A DNA stretch of 16,064 bases from contig JBBIPZ010000032.1 in the NCBI GenBank assembly GCA_037442505.1, positions 1 through 16,064 on the forward strand. Direction: 5' to 3'. Below, one piece after another: positions 2,313-10,358 of this stretch; the first letter of the stretch is position 1, and each line of letters begins with the position of its first letter. Source of the DNA: JBBIPZ01 sp037442505 [NCBI: Deltaproteobacteria bacterium] (GTDB lineage Bacteria > CALINM01). The notes below the pieces were generated by a model. The model was not told the DNA's origin, did not search any database, and was given only the letters and a program-made list of their open reading frames with translations. A program made the translations under genes and the position numbers.

Positions 2313-2320
2313 AAAGGAGG
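2313..2320 (+). promoter_or_regulatory. Strong Shine-Dalgarno site for the 18-codon gene
   Basis: AAAGGAGG lies nine bases before the ATG at 2330. It is among the best ribosome binding sites in the window and is the main reason to accept the very short gene that follows. Confidence 0.75.
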
Positions 2321-2329
2321 TAACAGATT

Positions 2330-2386
2330 ATGAAAAGTTACATTAAACCAAAAGCATTAGGAACAAGTTCAGTTCACCCTTGTTAA
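2330..2386 (+). CDS. 18-residue small peptide MKSYIKPKALGTSSVHPC, unknown function
   Basis: A complete ATG-to-TAA frame of 18 codons begins 32 bases after the cytochrome stop and is preceded by AAAGGAGG at ideal spacing. A rho-independent terminator starts 28 bases after its stop, so by position it is the last gene of the cytochrome transcript. The peptide is basic at the N-terminus (MKSYIKPK), has a Tyr-x-x-Pro motif, then Gly-Thr-Ser-Ser, and ends in Val-His-Pro-Cys. There is no membrane segment or signal peptide. Tyr-x-x-Pro followed by Leu/Gly resembles leader regions of some ribosomally made, modified peptides, and a C-terminal Cys is a plausible modification or ligand site; both points are inference. 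I do not recognise a named family. It could instead be a translated regulatory ORF or a chance ORF. Confidence 0.55.
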   Translation: MKSYIKPKALGTSSVHPC

Positions 2387-2413
2387 ATGCCAAAGTCAAT
2401 CAGTTTTGTTTCA

Positions 2414-2447
2414 CAAAAAAAGCGTGCTTTTAATGCACGCTTTTTTT
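2414..2447 (+). terminator. Rho-independent terminator after cytochrome/small peptide
   Basis: A perfect 7-bp GC-containing stem (AGCGTGC at 2421-2427 with GCACGCT at 2435-2441) has a 7-base loop. It is extended by a run of A on the left pairing with a run of T on the right, and the T-run follows the stem directly. It would end the cytochrome and small-peptide transcript and insulate xseB. Confidence 0.9.
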
Positions 2448-6514: not shown

Positions 6515-7669
6515 ATGCCTGATTTTGATCTGATTTTATTAGGAGAAACAGCCTTTACTATCGATTTGAAAAGTGAATTTGAAGGCAAAGTAAAGCTGCT
6601 GTTTGTCGACAACACTGCTTTTAAAAAAGAGTTTTCTACTGAGCTTTTTCCAGAAGTCACTTATATTCCACAGACAAAACAAATAGAAGGATTGTTTGGA
6701 CAAGTAATTTCTGAGTCCTTTAGGGTGGATTTATCCTCTAAACGGAACATTTTTAATCTTATGTGGACTGAAGAACTGAAAGAAAAGATAGAAAAGCTTG
6801 ACTTGTTAGAAAAATCAGCTGCTTTTGAGTTGAATATTGCAAACTATTTAATGTTGGAAAGCTTTGCGGAATCGATGTTTAGCACATTAATAAAAAATAT
6901 AAACTTCACATTTAAAAATTTAAGCCAGATTAGGAAACTTTACTTACACAGACTTAGCAATGGTATTGGTGAATTTAAGAATTTCATCACAACACTAAGG
7001 CTTTTTCTTGCCCCGGGAGAGGTAAATAATGCAGCGTTCGATAAATATATTTTCTACTCGTTTATCTCAAAACAGCCATATAAAATCGAAGAAGAGCTAT
7101 TTGTAAATAGTTCAAAAAACGATGCTGGTTTGTTAGTTGCGATAACACATGGAGAAAACTGGGAACTTCGCTTTGAAAAACAAAAGGTCACTGGCAAAAT
7201 TCTTGTTTCTGGCATACCACCGCATATATTTAATATTTGTGATATCTCTCATCCCTTTGAGCTTGGCTACCATAGAGCCTTTTTTTGTTTAACTCCAGTT
7301 TCACCTTTAGAGCCTTCTCCAATGATGGCAGACGAGCTTGTATATGCCAATAAAGATAGGTTCTGCTTTATAAAAAAGCAAAAAAATAAAGGTTTGCATT
7401 TTTTTGTCCCCGCTAAAATCTCCGAAAAATTAGATCTTGGCGTACTTGAAGATGTTTTTGATAGTTTGTTTCCGCACGTTATCAACCTGCCGCAGTTTAA
7501 TGTTTTATCTCATATCTATCCTGTTTATGACAGTTTCAAAAACAAAAAATTTGCAGAAGAAAAGACAGTTTATTTTTTGAAAAATTTTGAATATCCTTTT
7601 TTAGGAATTGATGGTGAAATGCTTTACAGAAAAAAACTAAAGGAGACGTTATGGAAAAAGCTCCTTTAG
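6515..7669 (+). CDS. Uncharacterised 384-residue protein in Ccs-like operon, possibly degenerate flavoprotein fold
   Basis: I do not recognise this protein. It is soluble, with no signal peptide or membrane helices. The N-terminus (PDFDLILLGETAFTIDLKSE) looks like the first strand and helix of a Rossmann fold but lacks a GxGxxG dinucleotide motif. The centre has a VSGIPPHIF segment, and the C-terminus (FLGIDGEMLY at about 362-371) resembles the end of amine-oxidase or phytoene-desaturase-like flavoproteins. A degenerate flavoprotein is therefore a weak hypothesis only. It starts three bases after the UPF0173 gene with no clear Shine-Dalgarno site. Its last 19 bases overlap the CcsA-like gene, whose Shine-Dalgarno site lies inside it. 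The tight coupling suggests a role linked to haem or cytochrome c maturation. Confidence 0.75.
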   Translation: MPDFDLILLGETAFTIDLKSEFEGKVKLLFVDNTAFKKEFSTELFPEVTYIPQTKQIEGLFGQVISESFRVDLSSKRNIFNLMWTEELKEKIEKLDLLEKSAAFELNIANYLMLESFAESMFSTLIKNINFTFKNLSQIRKLYLHRLSNGIGEFKNFITTLRLFLAPGEVNNAAFDKYIFYSFISKQPYKIEEELFVNSSKNDAGLLVAITHGENWELRFEKQKVTGKILVSGIPPHIFNICDISHPFELGYHRAFFCLTPVSPLEPSPMMADELVYANKDRFCFIKKQKNKGLHFFVPAKISEKLDLGVLEDVFDSLFPHVINLPQFNVLSHIYPVYDSFKNKKFAEEKTVYFLKNFEYPFLGIDGEMLYRKKLKETLWKKLL

Positions 7670-8349
7670 TTTTTGCAGTTTGTTTTCTGCTGTATTCTAT
7701 TTTTATAAGACCTCATAAGGCTGCTTCTATAATAGCGATGCTATCTATTGGAGTCCTTTTAGGTTATAGAGCCTTTATTTATAAACATTTTCCTGTTATT
7801 GGGCTTTTCGAAACTCTTAATTTTTTTGGTTTTGCTATTTTAGTAATAGGTTTTTTTATAAATGCGAAAAAGCCTTTAGAAGAAATGTTAAAAAACGTTT
7901 TTGTACTGATATTAATTGGTTTTTCGCTTTTTGCGCAGAGTTCAGCATCTCCATTTTTGCCTGACTCACTCAAAACGGTACTCTTTCCCATTCATGTGGC
8001 TTTTTCTTTTATTAGTTATGCCTTTTTTACCCTTGCGTTTATTAATGTCATATCGCAAGGTGATGCAAAAACGGCGATGGAGCTAAACTATTTTGGTTTT
8101 GCTGTTTTTACGATTGGTCTTTGGGCTGGCGGAATATGGGCTTTCAAGGCTTGGGGAGCTTATTTTTTGTTTAGTATCAAAGAGATTTTTTCTTTTGTAA
8201 TCTGGATATACTATGCTGGCCTTATCCACGTAAGGTTTTTTAAGAAAAAGGATGCGGTTATTTATTATGGTACAATTATTGGTTTTATTATTGTAATTTT
8301 TACCTATATAGGCATCGGGCTCTTTATGAAAAATACACATTCACTGTGA
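7651..8349 (+). CDS. CcsA/ResC-like cytochrome c biogenesis membrane protein with degenerate WWD motif
   Basis: This 232-residue protein is almost wholly hydrophobic, with about eight predicted membrane helices. It matches the haem-handling protein of system II cytochrome c maturation. The conserved external His is H115 (FPIHVAFSFISYAFF), the second is H193 (LIHVRF), and the earlier GLFETLNF matches the family's conserved Pro/Glu segment. The haem-presenting WWD segment, normally of the form WGxYWxWDPKE, here reads WGAYFLFSIKE (168-178). Both late Trp are Phe and Asp-Pro is Ser-Ile, while the leading Trp and the Lys-Glu remain. It could be a specialised or altered haem exporter, or a HemX-like protein. 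AAAGGAG (7639-7645) is a strong Shine-Dalgarno site. The ResB-like partner follows seven bases later. Confidence 0.85.
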   Translation: MEKAPLVFAVCFLLYSIFIRPHKAASIIAMLSIGVLLGYRAFIYKHFPVIGLFETLNFFGFAILVIGFFINAKKPLEEMLKNVFVLILIGFSLFAQSSASPFLPDSLKTVLFPIHVAFSFISYAFFTLAFINVISQGDAKTAMELNYFGFAVFTIGLWAGGIWAFKAWGAYFLFSIKEIFSFVIWIYYAGLIHVRFFKKKDAVIYYGTIIGFIIVIFTYIGIGLFMKNTHSL

Positions 8350-8356
8350 TGTTATT

Positions 8357-9343
8357 ATGAAAAAAATTTTAAAATCACTATTTTTTGATGTTGAATATTC
8401 TGGATACGTATTGGGGCTGATATCACTATTTTCAATCATTGGTGCGTTTATAATTTATTTTTACCCCGATGGGTACAATCTGATTTCCTCAAAACCCCTT
8501 TTTGAGTGGATGTATTTTAACCAGCGATTTGATACGTTCTGGCTATACCTTATTACACTGCTCTTTGGATATACAGCAATAACAGGATTGATTTGTTTGG
8601 CTAAAGACGTGTTTAATTTGAGGTTTTTTCAAGCAGTATTCCATTTAACATTTTTGCTTGTGCTTCTTGCACATCTCATAACAGCTATGTATGGTTTTAG
8701 AATTACAGAAGTAATTTTGCCTCAATCGCGACCGGAAACTATTATTACGCCTCCACCATTTAAACATTTAAAAATATTTTTCAGAGATGCGCAATATCAA
8801 CAGAATGCTTATGGAATATTCACTGACATCAGGGCTGATATTATCTATCTGGATGAAAACAGAGAGAAAGAAGCGGTGCTGTCAATCAATAATCCATTAA
8901 AAATATCTGACTTTCATGTTGTTTTGAAAGATATTGGCAACTATTTAGCCGCTGTAAACATAAAAATTTATGATGGGAAGAATGAAGAAATGTTGTCACT
9001 GGAAGTTGGAAAAACATTTGTAAAAGATAAGTATAGCATAGATTTTTTAGCCCACGATTCTCAATTCAGCCAGATAAAAGTTAGCTATTATGAAAATGGG
9101 AACAAAGAAATACTCTTTTTAACATCAGGGAGCAAACTTAGGTTATCTGATAAGACATACACTGTCAAAGGTTTTTTCCCGGTAGTTGTGCCAGCGATTA
9201 TTGTTGATGTTACTTACGATCCTTCTTTGATGCTGATTTTTTATGCGTCTACATTGTTTACGGTTGTTTTGTCTGTTGATTTGTTAAGAAGATTTGTCAG
9301 GTTTTTTAGCAGGCGTAATTTAAATCCACAAGTGACCAGTTGA
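8357..9343 (+). CDS. ResB/Ccs1-like cytochrome c biogenesis protein
   Basis: At 328 residues it has the ResB layout: three N-terminal membrane helices (about 15-36, 55-80 and 88-112), a large extracytoplasmic domain (about 115-285), and a C-terminal helix (LMLIFYASTLFTVVLSVDLL) with a basic cytoplasmic tail. The third helix has two His (FHLTFLLVLLAHL) near where the family carries His. The INNPLKISDFHVVLKDIG segment fits the ResB pattern of a small-domain strand pair. ResB works with CcsA/ResC to hold apocytochrome and deliver haem. Divergence from canonical ResB is considerable, but pairing with the CcsA-like gene supports the call. The 3' end overlaps the opposite-strand radical SAM gene by 38 bases. 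No terminator was seen. Confidence 0.82.
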   Translation: MKKILKSLFFDVEYSGYVLGLISLFSIIGAFIIYFYPDGYNLISSKPLFEWMYFNQRFDTFWLYLITLLFGYTAITGLICLAKDVFNLRFFQAVFHLTFLLVLLAHLITAMYGFRITEVILPQSRPETIITPPPFKHLKIFFRDAQYQQNAYGIFTDIRADIIYLDENREKEAVLSINNPLKISDFHVVLKDIGNYLAAVNIKIYDGKNEEMLSLEVGKTFVKDKYSIDFLAHDSQFSQIKVSYYENGNKEILFLTSGSKLRLSDKTYTVKGFFPVVVPAIIVDVTYDPSLMLIFYASTLFTVVLSVDLLRRFVRFFSRRNLNPQVTS

Positions 9344-10358
9344 TATTTTCCAAATCAATGTGTGTTTCTGTCTCTTTAATGCAAATGCCTGACTTAATCG
9401 AGTCTTCTGACAGAATTTTTATTTTCAGACCAATTTCAGAAAAATATCTTACATTTGATTTGTTGTGTCCTGCAATGTGTTGATAATCTTTATTGCTGCA
9501 GTATAGCGTCAGACTTTTAAGATGAGTGTTTGATAAAATTTGTTTGAGCAGCTCCAGCCATAGAAAAGATATAGCCTTGCCTTTCCAATCGTCATCCGAA
9601 TAGCTAAAGACAACTTCATCTAATTTTACAAAGCTATCCAACCCTACGCGAATAACTTTGATATTGTTAGCTTTAAATGCATAAAGCCCATAAGCTATTC
9701 TTTTTATAATCTCTTCTTTAGATATTGGCGTCCATATTTTGCATCCAAAGTAACATGCTAAAGCCGTATCTTTAAACACAATTAAAGGGTATATTCTTAC
9801 GAAATCAGGTTTTAATTCACATACTATATCTACAGTGCTTTTAAAAGAGTTAAAGGTTTCAAAAGGAAGCCCTGTCATGATTTGGTGGCAAACGCTATAC
9901 CCTGATAACTTAAGAAGTGAAGTGGCCTCTTTAACTATTTGAACGCTATATCTTCTACCGATAAGCCTTAAAAGATTATTATCCAGTGACTGGATGCCCA
10001 ATTCAACTGTATCCACAATTCCCTTAATCATTTCGAGTTTTTCTGAATTAATACTGTCAGGTGTGGTTGAAACTCTGATAGTATTGGCTTTGCCTTGATT
10101 TTTAAGTTCTTTAGCCTGTTTTAGTAAAAGATTTAGTCTGGCGTCAGGTAAGTTTAAAAATGTCCCACCATAAAAGGCGAATTCTACATCAACATTTTCA
10201 TCTTTCTTGAGTGTGCTTGTATATCTTGTTAATGTATCTTTAATCGTCTCTGTTTTTTGATGACCGACAAATTTAAGTTGATTGCAGTAAATGCAATGGT
10301 TTTGGCATCCCTGCATAGATATAAAAAAAGGCACGATAATCTTTTTATTGCTCTTCAT
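9306..10358 (-). CDS. Radical SAM protein, Elp3/YhcC-like group, downstream of rnc
   Basis: This 350-residue protein has the radical SAM 4Fe-4S motif CQNHCIYC (C18, C22, C25) and the SAM-binding FAFYGGTF typical of the Elp3-like group. VELGIQSLDNNLL and a MTGLPFETFNSF segment follow. It lacks the C-terminal GNAT acetyltransferase domain of true Elp3, and the Cys spacing is the simple CxxxCxxC form. Proteins of this kind often sit next to rnc, as here; tRNA or other RNA modification is a reasonable guess, but the substrate is unknown. Its ATG lies within the last 14 bases of rnc, so expression is coupled. The last 38 bases (encoding VDLNYAC) overlap the ResB-like gene on the other strand. Confidence 0.85.
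   Translation of the reverse strand: MKSNKKIIVPFFISMQGCQNHCIYCNQLKFVGHQKTETIKDTLTRYTSTLKKDENVDVEFAFYGGTFLNLPDARLNLLLKQAKELKNQGKANTIRVSTTPDSINSEKLEMIKGIVDTVELGIQSLDNNLLRLIGRRYSVQIVKEATSLLKLSGYSVCHQIMTGLPFETFNSFKSTVDIVCELKPDFVRIYPLIVFKDTALACYFGCKIWTPISKEEIIKRIAYGLYAFKANNIKVIRVGLDSFVKLDEVVFSYSDDDWKGKAISFLWLELLKQILSNTHLKSLTLYCSNKDYQHIAGHNKSNVRYFSEIGLKIKILSEDSIKSGICIKETETHIDLENINWSLVDLNYAC

Follow-up and report, generated by a model that had tools for sequence, protein, structure and literature searches.

An 18-residue peptide gene behind a multihaem cytochrome gene: a probable precursor for the GeoRSP maturation system

The stretch of DNA analysed here (the window, 16,064 nucleotides of a deltaproteobacterial contig) has an open reading frame of 18 codons directly behind the gene of a multihaem c-type cytochrome. 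Is this frame a gene and, if so, what is its product for? Our comparisons with related sequences suggest that the product of positions 2330-2386 is very probably a ribosomally synthesised precursor peptide, on which the GeoRSP maturation system or a close variant of it would act.

The peptide gene in the window

The features around the peptide gene are as follows.

3-2297, + strand: 3' part of the gene of a multihaem c-type cytochrome (PF09699, 9e-13; TIGR01905, 8.8e-10)
2313-2320, + strand: Shine-Dalgarno site AAAGGAGG, read from the sequence, nine bases to the ATG
2330-2386, + strand: 18-residue peptide gene MKSYIKPKALGTSSVHPC (ATG 2330-2332, 18 codons, TAA 2384-2386; profile match)
2339-2350, + strand: YxxP (YIKP) segment, presumed PqqD-type recognition sequence (Tyr and Pro invariant in A1, both fixed by the search pattern)
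2375-2383, + strand: C-terminal HPC, presumed modification site (172 of 172 distinct profile matches end in HPC, as does the profile itself)
2415-2447, + strand: intrinsic terminator, a 13-bp hairpin with a T run, 28 bases after the peptide stop

The ribosome site with its nine-base spacing, the 18 codons closed by TAA and the terminator 28 bases further on had been reported in a first-pass annotation, and all were confirmed in the sequence. The sole Cys and the sole His of the peptide do lie in its C-terminal HPC. A simple terminator scan of the window found none, the hairpin at 2415-2447 included. Between the end of the cytochrome frame (2297) and the peptide ATG there are 32 bases, and this spacing, together with the terminator, suggests that cytochrome and peptide are carried by one transcript. 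The left edge of the window cuts the cytochrome gene, of which 764 amino acids are present, with six CXXCH motifs and the C-terminus RCHNSP...RWNDVTPWQ. Only Paired_CXXCH models match this part over their cut-offs, and the earlier label 'OmcS-like' was not upheld.

We searched 916 six-frame segments of the window with a profile of 27 relatives, from which the window's own row had been excluded. The peptide frame was matched with 34.4 bits (E 6.9e-10), and the next best match had an E-value of 0.8. The Pfam and NCBIfam scan of the 18-mer, which was padded with two X and is shorter than such scans handle well, gave no match, and neither did the Rfam scan of the window at gathering thresholds.

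The next gene after the peptide terminator is xseB, which starts at 2653, and the genes behind it were taken for ispA and dxs. The Dxs of the window is 53-57% identical to those of 15 genomes from several groups and 45% identical to that of one genome in which the peptide pattern (see below) had matched by chance; it had no match in genome G019. Given the 53-57%, the organism of the window is close to none of the 15 genomes and its lineage is unsampled. For the radical SAM gene of the window (9309-10358), the GeoRSP enzyme model TIGR04303 was absent among the best 25 of the 26 families listed. A CcsB-like gene (TIGR03144, below cut-off) and then an ORF without NCBIfam match occupy 7651-9340. 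We take the product of this ORF to be a ResB-like protein, and the two genes likely act as a pair in cytochrome c synthesis; they lie 5 kb from the cytochrome of the window.

A peptide family under coding constraint and its gene neighbours

An initial pattern, taken from an idea of the first-pass annotation, matched MKKYMKPKVVGSSSVHPC, preceded by AAAGGAGG, in a phage contig (L013). The pattern scan in genomes of 84,980 species, blind to gene context, returned at least 100 stretches with at least 103 matches, i.e., 97 in-frame 18-mers and six chance matches. The pattern fixed M1, K/R2, Y4, K/R6, P7 and HPC, whose invariance is thus built in, and left positions 3, 5 and 8-15 free. The copies (at least 97) came from Desulfuromonadales genera or from records labelled 'Desulfuromonadales' or 'Deltaproteobacteria', and one locus (L050) from a MAG labelled Phycisphaerae. 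The family has the consensus MKKYMKPKVVGSSNVHPC and a length of 17-20 residues. Profile searches found longer-start forms, such as MKKRTYIKPRVVGSANVHPC, in Geobacter-type genomes (a working label, see below), and the form MKTRYVKPRVTGQSSVHPC in other classes. The 172 distinct matches that all end in HPC were kept at 15 bits or more, after removal of those with more than six residues beyond the alignment.

The free positions were also conserved: among 99 sequences, including those of the window and the phage, G11 was found in 96, S12 in 98 and V15 in 95. Over the ten free codons of 93 distinct genes, pS was 0.456 and pN 0.028 (pN/pS 0.06), which bears out the coding constraint expected of a genuine short gene. 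Sites resembling a Shine-Dalgarno sequence precede 94 of the 97 copies and 199 of 1939 ATGs picked at random from these loci, and for AGGAG or GGAGG the numbers are 89 of 97 against 57 of 1939. The family is thus real and consists of short, ribosomally encoded peptides under constraint, as RiPP precursors are. In the 110 nt downstream, 122 of 161 copies have a hairpin and T run that reach at least -12 kcal/mol in stability, against 20 of 154 other long ORFs (contig-edge copies omitted).

The genes that precede the 97 or more pattern-found copies were classed by motif rules, with few proteins scanned against domain libraries. They encode the GeoRSP radical SAM enzyme (rSAM) in 34 cases, a multihaem cytochrome in 30, an FG-GAP protein in nine, an HDIG protein in five and other proteins in ten; one copy had no ORF within 600 nt and eight were at a contig edge. 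The set of 172 genes has 44 rSAM neighbours, a number inflated by the stretches that were fetched around GeoRSP, so the 97-gene set is the fair one. The radical SAM/SPASM products that precede the peptide end in PDPHCW(K/V).

Conserved short ORFs with an HPC end beside related cytochromes, for which the first-pass annotation had proposed to search, were therefore found (the 30 of 97 copies above). Its idea that short length has hidden a new family of micro-proteins linked to cytochromes was strongly supported, except that the family is wider than cytochromes and extends to the GeoRSP operon, FG-GAP and HDIG genes and a phage.

The cytochrome of the window is homologous to the peptide-paired cytochromes in the class of genome G002 (best E 9.5e-48, 33% over 596 aligned positions, in G169). 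Many of these paired cytochromes end in a lone CH and then WNxVTPW or a WN...W variant. The link is selective, since G169 has paired-CXXCH clusters (near 1804, 2315 and 3328 kb) that are remote from every one of its six peptide matches. With the cytochrome of the window as query, we retrieved nine stretches from genome contigs, none of them confirmed, and none from plasmids.

Other arrangements recur. An FG-GAP repeat protein precedes the peptide in nine of the 97 loci (L080:1345-2802, + strand, L057, L090, L098, L111 and others); PF13517 was matched in L080, the sole one scanned, and the others were assigned by motif. An HDIG-domain protein of about 190 amino acids does so in five (L075:3873-4436, - strand, with a match to TIGR00277, and L050, L052, L069 and L117). 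In L119, two tandem peptide genes follow a multihaem cytochrome, with starts 103 bases apart.

Linkage with GeoRSP in relatives

GeoRSP is a curated radical SAM system represented in NCBIfam by TIGR04302 (geo_PqqD_fam), TIGR04303 (GeoRSP_rSAM) and TIGR04304 (GeoRSP_SPASM), with cut-offs of 100, 400 and 300 bits, respectively. We found no substrate model for it in the databases searched, and no description of a GeoRSP substrate or of the HPC peptide in the openly licensed literature searched. In one peptide-bearing locus, scanned gene by gene, the operon has the following order.

L076, 3618-7974, - strand, part 1: beta-helix proteins (one NosD-like), PhnD-like binding protein, unmatched ORF (at a guess, a TPR protein), YedE-type putative selenium transporter
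L076, continued: GeoRSP PqqD, GeoRSP rSAM, peptide, GeoRSP SPASM protein (below cut-off), cysteine desulfurase

Peptide-linked rSAMs passed the TIGR04303 cut-off in L076 (445 bits), L087 (471.5) and L174 (461.7), and scored 399.5 in L330. In the peptide-adjacent operons L076 and L174, the PqqD proteins scored 100.3 and 98.6 bits, and the SPASM proteins 93.8 and 87.2; in L330, nothing matched the PqqD-like neighbour at 1e-20. Operons that contain the peptide represent a close variant of GeoRSP, in which the SPASM protein scores far below its cut-off. Genome G169, with six peptide matches, has all three components over their cut-offs (rSAM, L152, 614.9 bits; PqqD 164.8; SPASM 339.4). Its peptide copies are not next to the rSAM, and four of the six are within about 30 kb. 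The peptide therefore goes with GeoRSP proper as well as with the close variant, whose operons fit the models more loosely.

We searched 69 GeoRSP loci for homologues of the L076 operon proteins, in stretches of 3.4 to 9 kb that make the counts lower bounds. Homologues of its PqqD protein (tblastn) were beside the rSAM in 69 of 69 loci; the PqqD-type protein precedes the enzyme. Those of its SPASM protein (tblastn) were found in 33 of 34 Geobacter-type, 26 of 26 Desulfuromonadales-type and one of nine other-class loci. YedE was present in at least 50 loci, PhnD in at least 51, the NosD-like beta-helix protein in at least 41 and the desulfurase in at least 24, the latter near GeoRSP only in the Desulfuromonadales type. 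The search for the GeoRSP rSAM in plasmids and phages returned only MftC-like and distant proteins.

Peptide and enzyme co-occur. Among the 277 genomes of the class of G002, the rSAM was found at E 1e-60 or better in 87 (at most seven candidates scored per genome), with 81 over the TIGR04303 cut-off, and the peptide in 95. The peptide is carried by 85 of the 87 genomes with GeoRSP versus 10 of the 190 without (Fisher 4e-57, which overstates the case because such p-values ignore phylogeny). The GeoRSP genomes G190 and G234 had no peptide match, also at E 0.1. Ten genomes had the peptide without a GeoRSP match (G013, G020, G034, G044, G139, G157, G160, G164, G244 and G247), four of them labelled as MAGs. 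In the 45 genomes behind the peptide loci, the rSAM was found at E 1e-100 in 36, as fragments in G003, G006, G018 and G035, and not at all in G013, G019, G020, G034 and G044; it was found in none of five genomes with chance matches (a sixth, L109, was left out).

For the reverse test we started from TIGR04303 and looked downstream of the rSAM. Among 26 Desulfuromonadales-type loci (26 fetched of 52), 22 had the peptide no more than 350 nt beyond the enzyme gene; they include 11 of the 13 loci whose genomes were absent from the output of the peptide scan. The peptide was found at this distance in none of the 34 Geobacter-type loci (L138-L171), a working label for those 35 GeoRSP genomes in the class whose rSAM scores are high, of which G156 was omitted. 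These loci fit the GeoRSP models best, and nearly all of these genomes carry the peptide elsewhere. Outside the class of G002, the peptide came just after the rSAM in seven of nine loci (G306, G342, G376, G403, G430, G285 and G037).

We also drew 198 genomes evenly from the phylum of G037. The rSAM was found in 12 and the peptide in 12, of which 11 had both; the peptide was thus present in 11 of the 12 genomes with GeoRSP (marginally in G310) versus one of the 186 without. The outliers were G454, with the rSAM only, and G435, whose peptide match looks spurious (13 of 18 positions, inside a frame of 494 amino acids). Five of the 12 genomes with GeoRSP were known beforehand (G037, G285, G220, G168 and G214), and in the seven new ones the peptide was clear in five, marginal in G310 and absent in G454.

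In these relatives, the family is therefore linked to a modifying enzyme and a recognition domain, the other mark of a RiPP precursor. The coding constraint, together with co-location and co-occurrence with GeoRSP, lends strong support to the suggestion of the first-pass annotation that the gene encodes a modified-peptide precursor. Since the peptide family lies beside an orphan GeoRSP enzyme in relatives, it is very probably the missing substrate of that enzyme.

Possible role, alternatives and known systems

The leader-like Tyr-x-x-Pro start reported earlier is indeed there, as YxKP at residues 4-7, the motif that PqqD-type proteins bind. A passage of PMC12710340 describes PqqD-like RREs as binding Y/W/LxxP sequences, with YxxP as the RRE recognition sequence. 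We infer that the organism of the window has GeoRSP and that the peptide enters it as follows. The transcript of cytochrome and peptide would be made and would stop at the terminator, and translation of the peptide would start at its own strong ribosome site. The GeoRSP PqqD-type protein, acting as an RRE, would bind the YxKP part and pass the peptide to the GeoRSP radical SAM/SPASM enzyme. The conserved remainder, with VHPC at its C-terminus, would form the core, and the enzyme would modify this VHPC, probably at the Cys. A thioether or similar chemistry at the Cys would suit both the sulfur/selenium genes of the operon and what other SPASM enzymes do. Among the exported redox proteins that the small product may then serve would be the multihaem cytochrome encoded upstream of the extra copy.

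There is one maturation locus for several precursors, and many of these lie downstream of cytochrome genes, an arrangement which suggests that supply is coupled to the synthesis of particular exported redox proteins. More tentatively, and with somewhat more against it than for it in our judgement, the GeoRSP product could be a redox or metal cofactor that derives from the peptide and is used in extracellular electron transfer. The precursor copies behind the genes of giant multihaem cytochromes (and a few others) that need it would then couple supply to demand, and phage copies would sustain the supply during infection.

The phage copy is at 6695-6751 (- strand) of L013, a tailed phage record of 78 kb (IMGVR_UViG_3300002231_000542) that encodes portal, terminase, major head and minor tail proteins. 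This was the sole peptide-bearing contig found in IMG/VR with the patterns used. Its gene differs from the copy after the L087 rSAM at four of 57 bases, all synonymous, and the 18 residues are identical. It stands alone, with a promoter-like site (TTGACA-17-TATAGT) upstream and a long hairpin downstream. We did not find the GeoRSP rSAM in this record, so the phage, as far as it is sequenced there, brings the precursor only. The edge of another viral contig (L016, 43-119, - strand) has MKAYSRPITGDTGLMSIGGC, a short ORF with GGAGG, YxxP and a C-terminal Cys that is outside the HPC family.

A copy kept by a phage, and the one to six copies per genome (231 matches in the 95 genomes of the class of G002, median two), would also suit a secreted signal or an antimicrobial RiPP made by GeoRSP and found near cytochromes merely because the cell expresses both in one growth state. 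The linkage with GeoRSP is equally expected of such a product. Yet no peptide exporter or immunity gene was named in L076, the sole operon scanned gene by gene, and the peptide sequence is nearly constant across clades. Most antimicrobial cores vary between clades, unlike the HPC peptide, and we regard a secreted product as unlikely.

The chances are slimmer still that the peptide works as an unmodified micro-protein, whose own His and Cys bind haem, a metal or the cytochrome, and whose presence in the GeoRSP operon is incidental. This would agree with the invariant HPC, with its pairing, in two lineages, with cytochromes from a single homologous group, with the copies in 10 of 190 genomes lacking a detected GeoRSP and with the missing rSAM adjacency in the 34 Geobacter-type loci. 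It would leave unexplained why 34 of 97 copies come directly after the GeoRSP rSAM, why co-occurrence with GeoRSP is near-perfect, why the start is leader-like (YxxP), and why other copies follow FG-GAP and HDIG genes or are found in a phage. A leader ORF or 3' element with a regulatory role, whose translation would control the following hairpin by attenuation without any functional peptide, is hardly credible and was rejected: the hairpins are frequent (the 122 of 161 above, and 40 of 43 copies following the rSAM at a laxer threshold of -6), but the downstream gene differs in the loci examined (SPASM in L076, xseB in the window, an ORF of 66 amino acids in phage L013), residues are conserved while synonymous sites are free (pN/pS 0.06), there is no run of one codon, and the phage copy is alone with its own promoter-like site.

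Read as a GeoRSP precursor, the peptide gives this system a candidate substrate of 18 letters that can be synthesised and tested in vitro; MKKYMKPRVVGSSNVHPC is the candidate named alongside MKSYIKPKALGTSSVHPC of the window. A modified-peptide pathway with one maturase locus, and with as many as six similar precursors placed downstream of cytochrome and other genes, would be organised in a new way, and the arrangement hints that metal-reducing bacteria may possess an unknown cofactor. Annotation easily overlooks genes of 57 bases, so that whole families of this kind can stay unseen.

Among known systems, lasso peptide precursors share the YxxP leader motif and the stand-alone PqqD-type RRE, but the HPC peptide has only 18 residues and ends in HPC. 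No lasso cyclase or protease was found among the nine L076 operon proteins scanned, and the lasso assignment was rejected. PQQ (PqqA/PqqD/PqqE) and mycofactocin resemble the present system in combining a short peptide, a PqqD-type RRE and a radical SAM/SPASM enzyme. The PqqD-type protein of L076 even exceeds the TIGR03859 cut-off (50.3 vs 46 bits). PQQ fails despite this match, since the peptide is unlike PqqA and five rSAMs scored 122.1, 113.4, 119.5, 124.1 and 116.2 bits, below the PqqE cut-off of 381.35 (TIGR02109).

Mycofactocin is made from a short peptide (MftA) with an RRE protein (MftB) and a radical SAM/SPASM enzyme (MftC). When the rSAMs were scanned with NCBIfam, the MftC model ranked second or third, and plasmid homologues of the GeoRSP rSAM, mostly annotated mftC, are 29-32% identical to it. 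The five rSAMs scored 193.5, 185.4, 172.5, 195.3 and 206.6 bits, below the MftC cut-off of 265 (TIGR03962), and this assignment was also rejected; the HPC family further differs by its VHPC end and its several copies per genome, many behind cytochromes. From GeoRSP, the family departs in that 63 of 97 copies are not after the rSAM (eight of these are at contig edges) and in that NCBIfam returned no model for the peptide (the 18-mer padded with two X). It agrees with GeoRSP in that the peptide co-occurs with its rSAM, directly follows it in 22 of 26 and seven of nine loci of two groups, and is present in G169, where all three models exceed their cut-offs.
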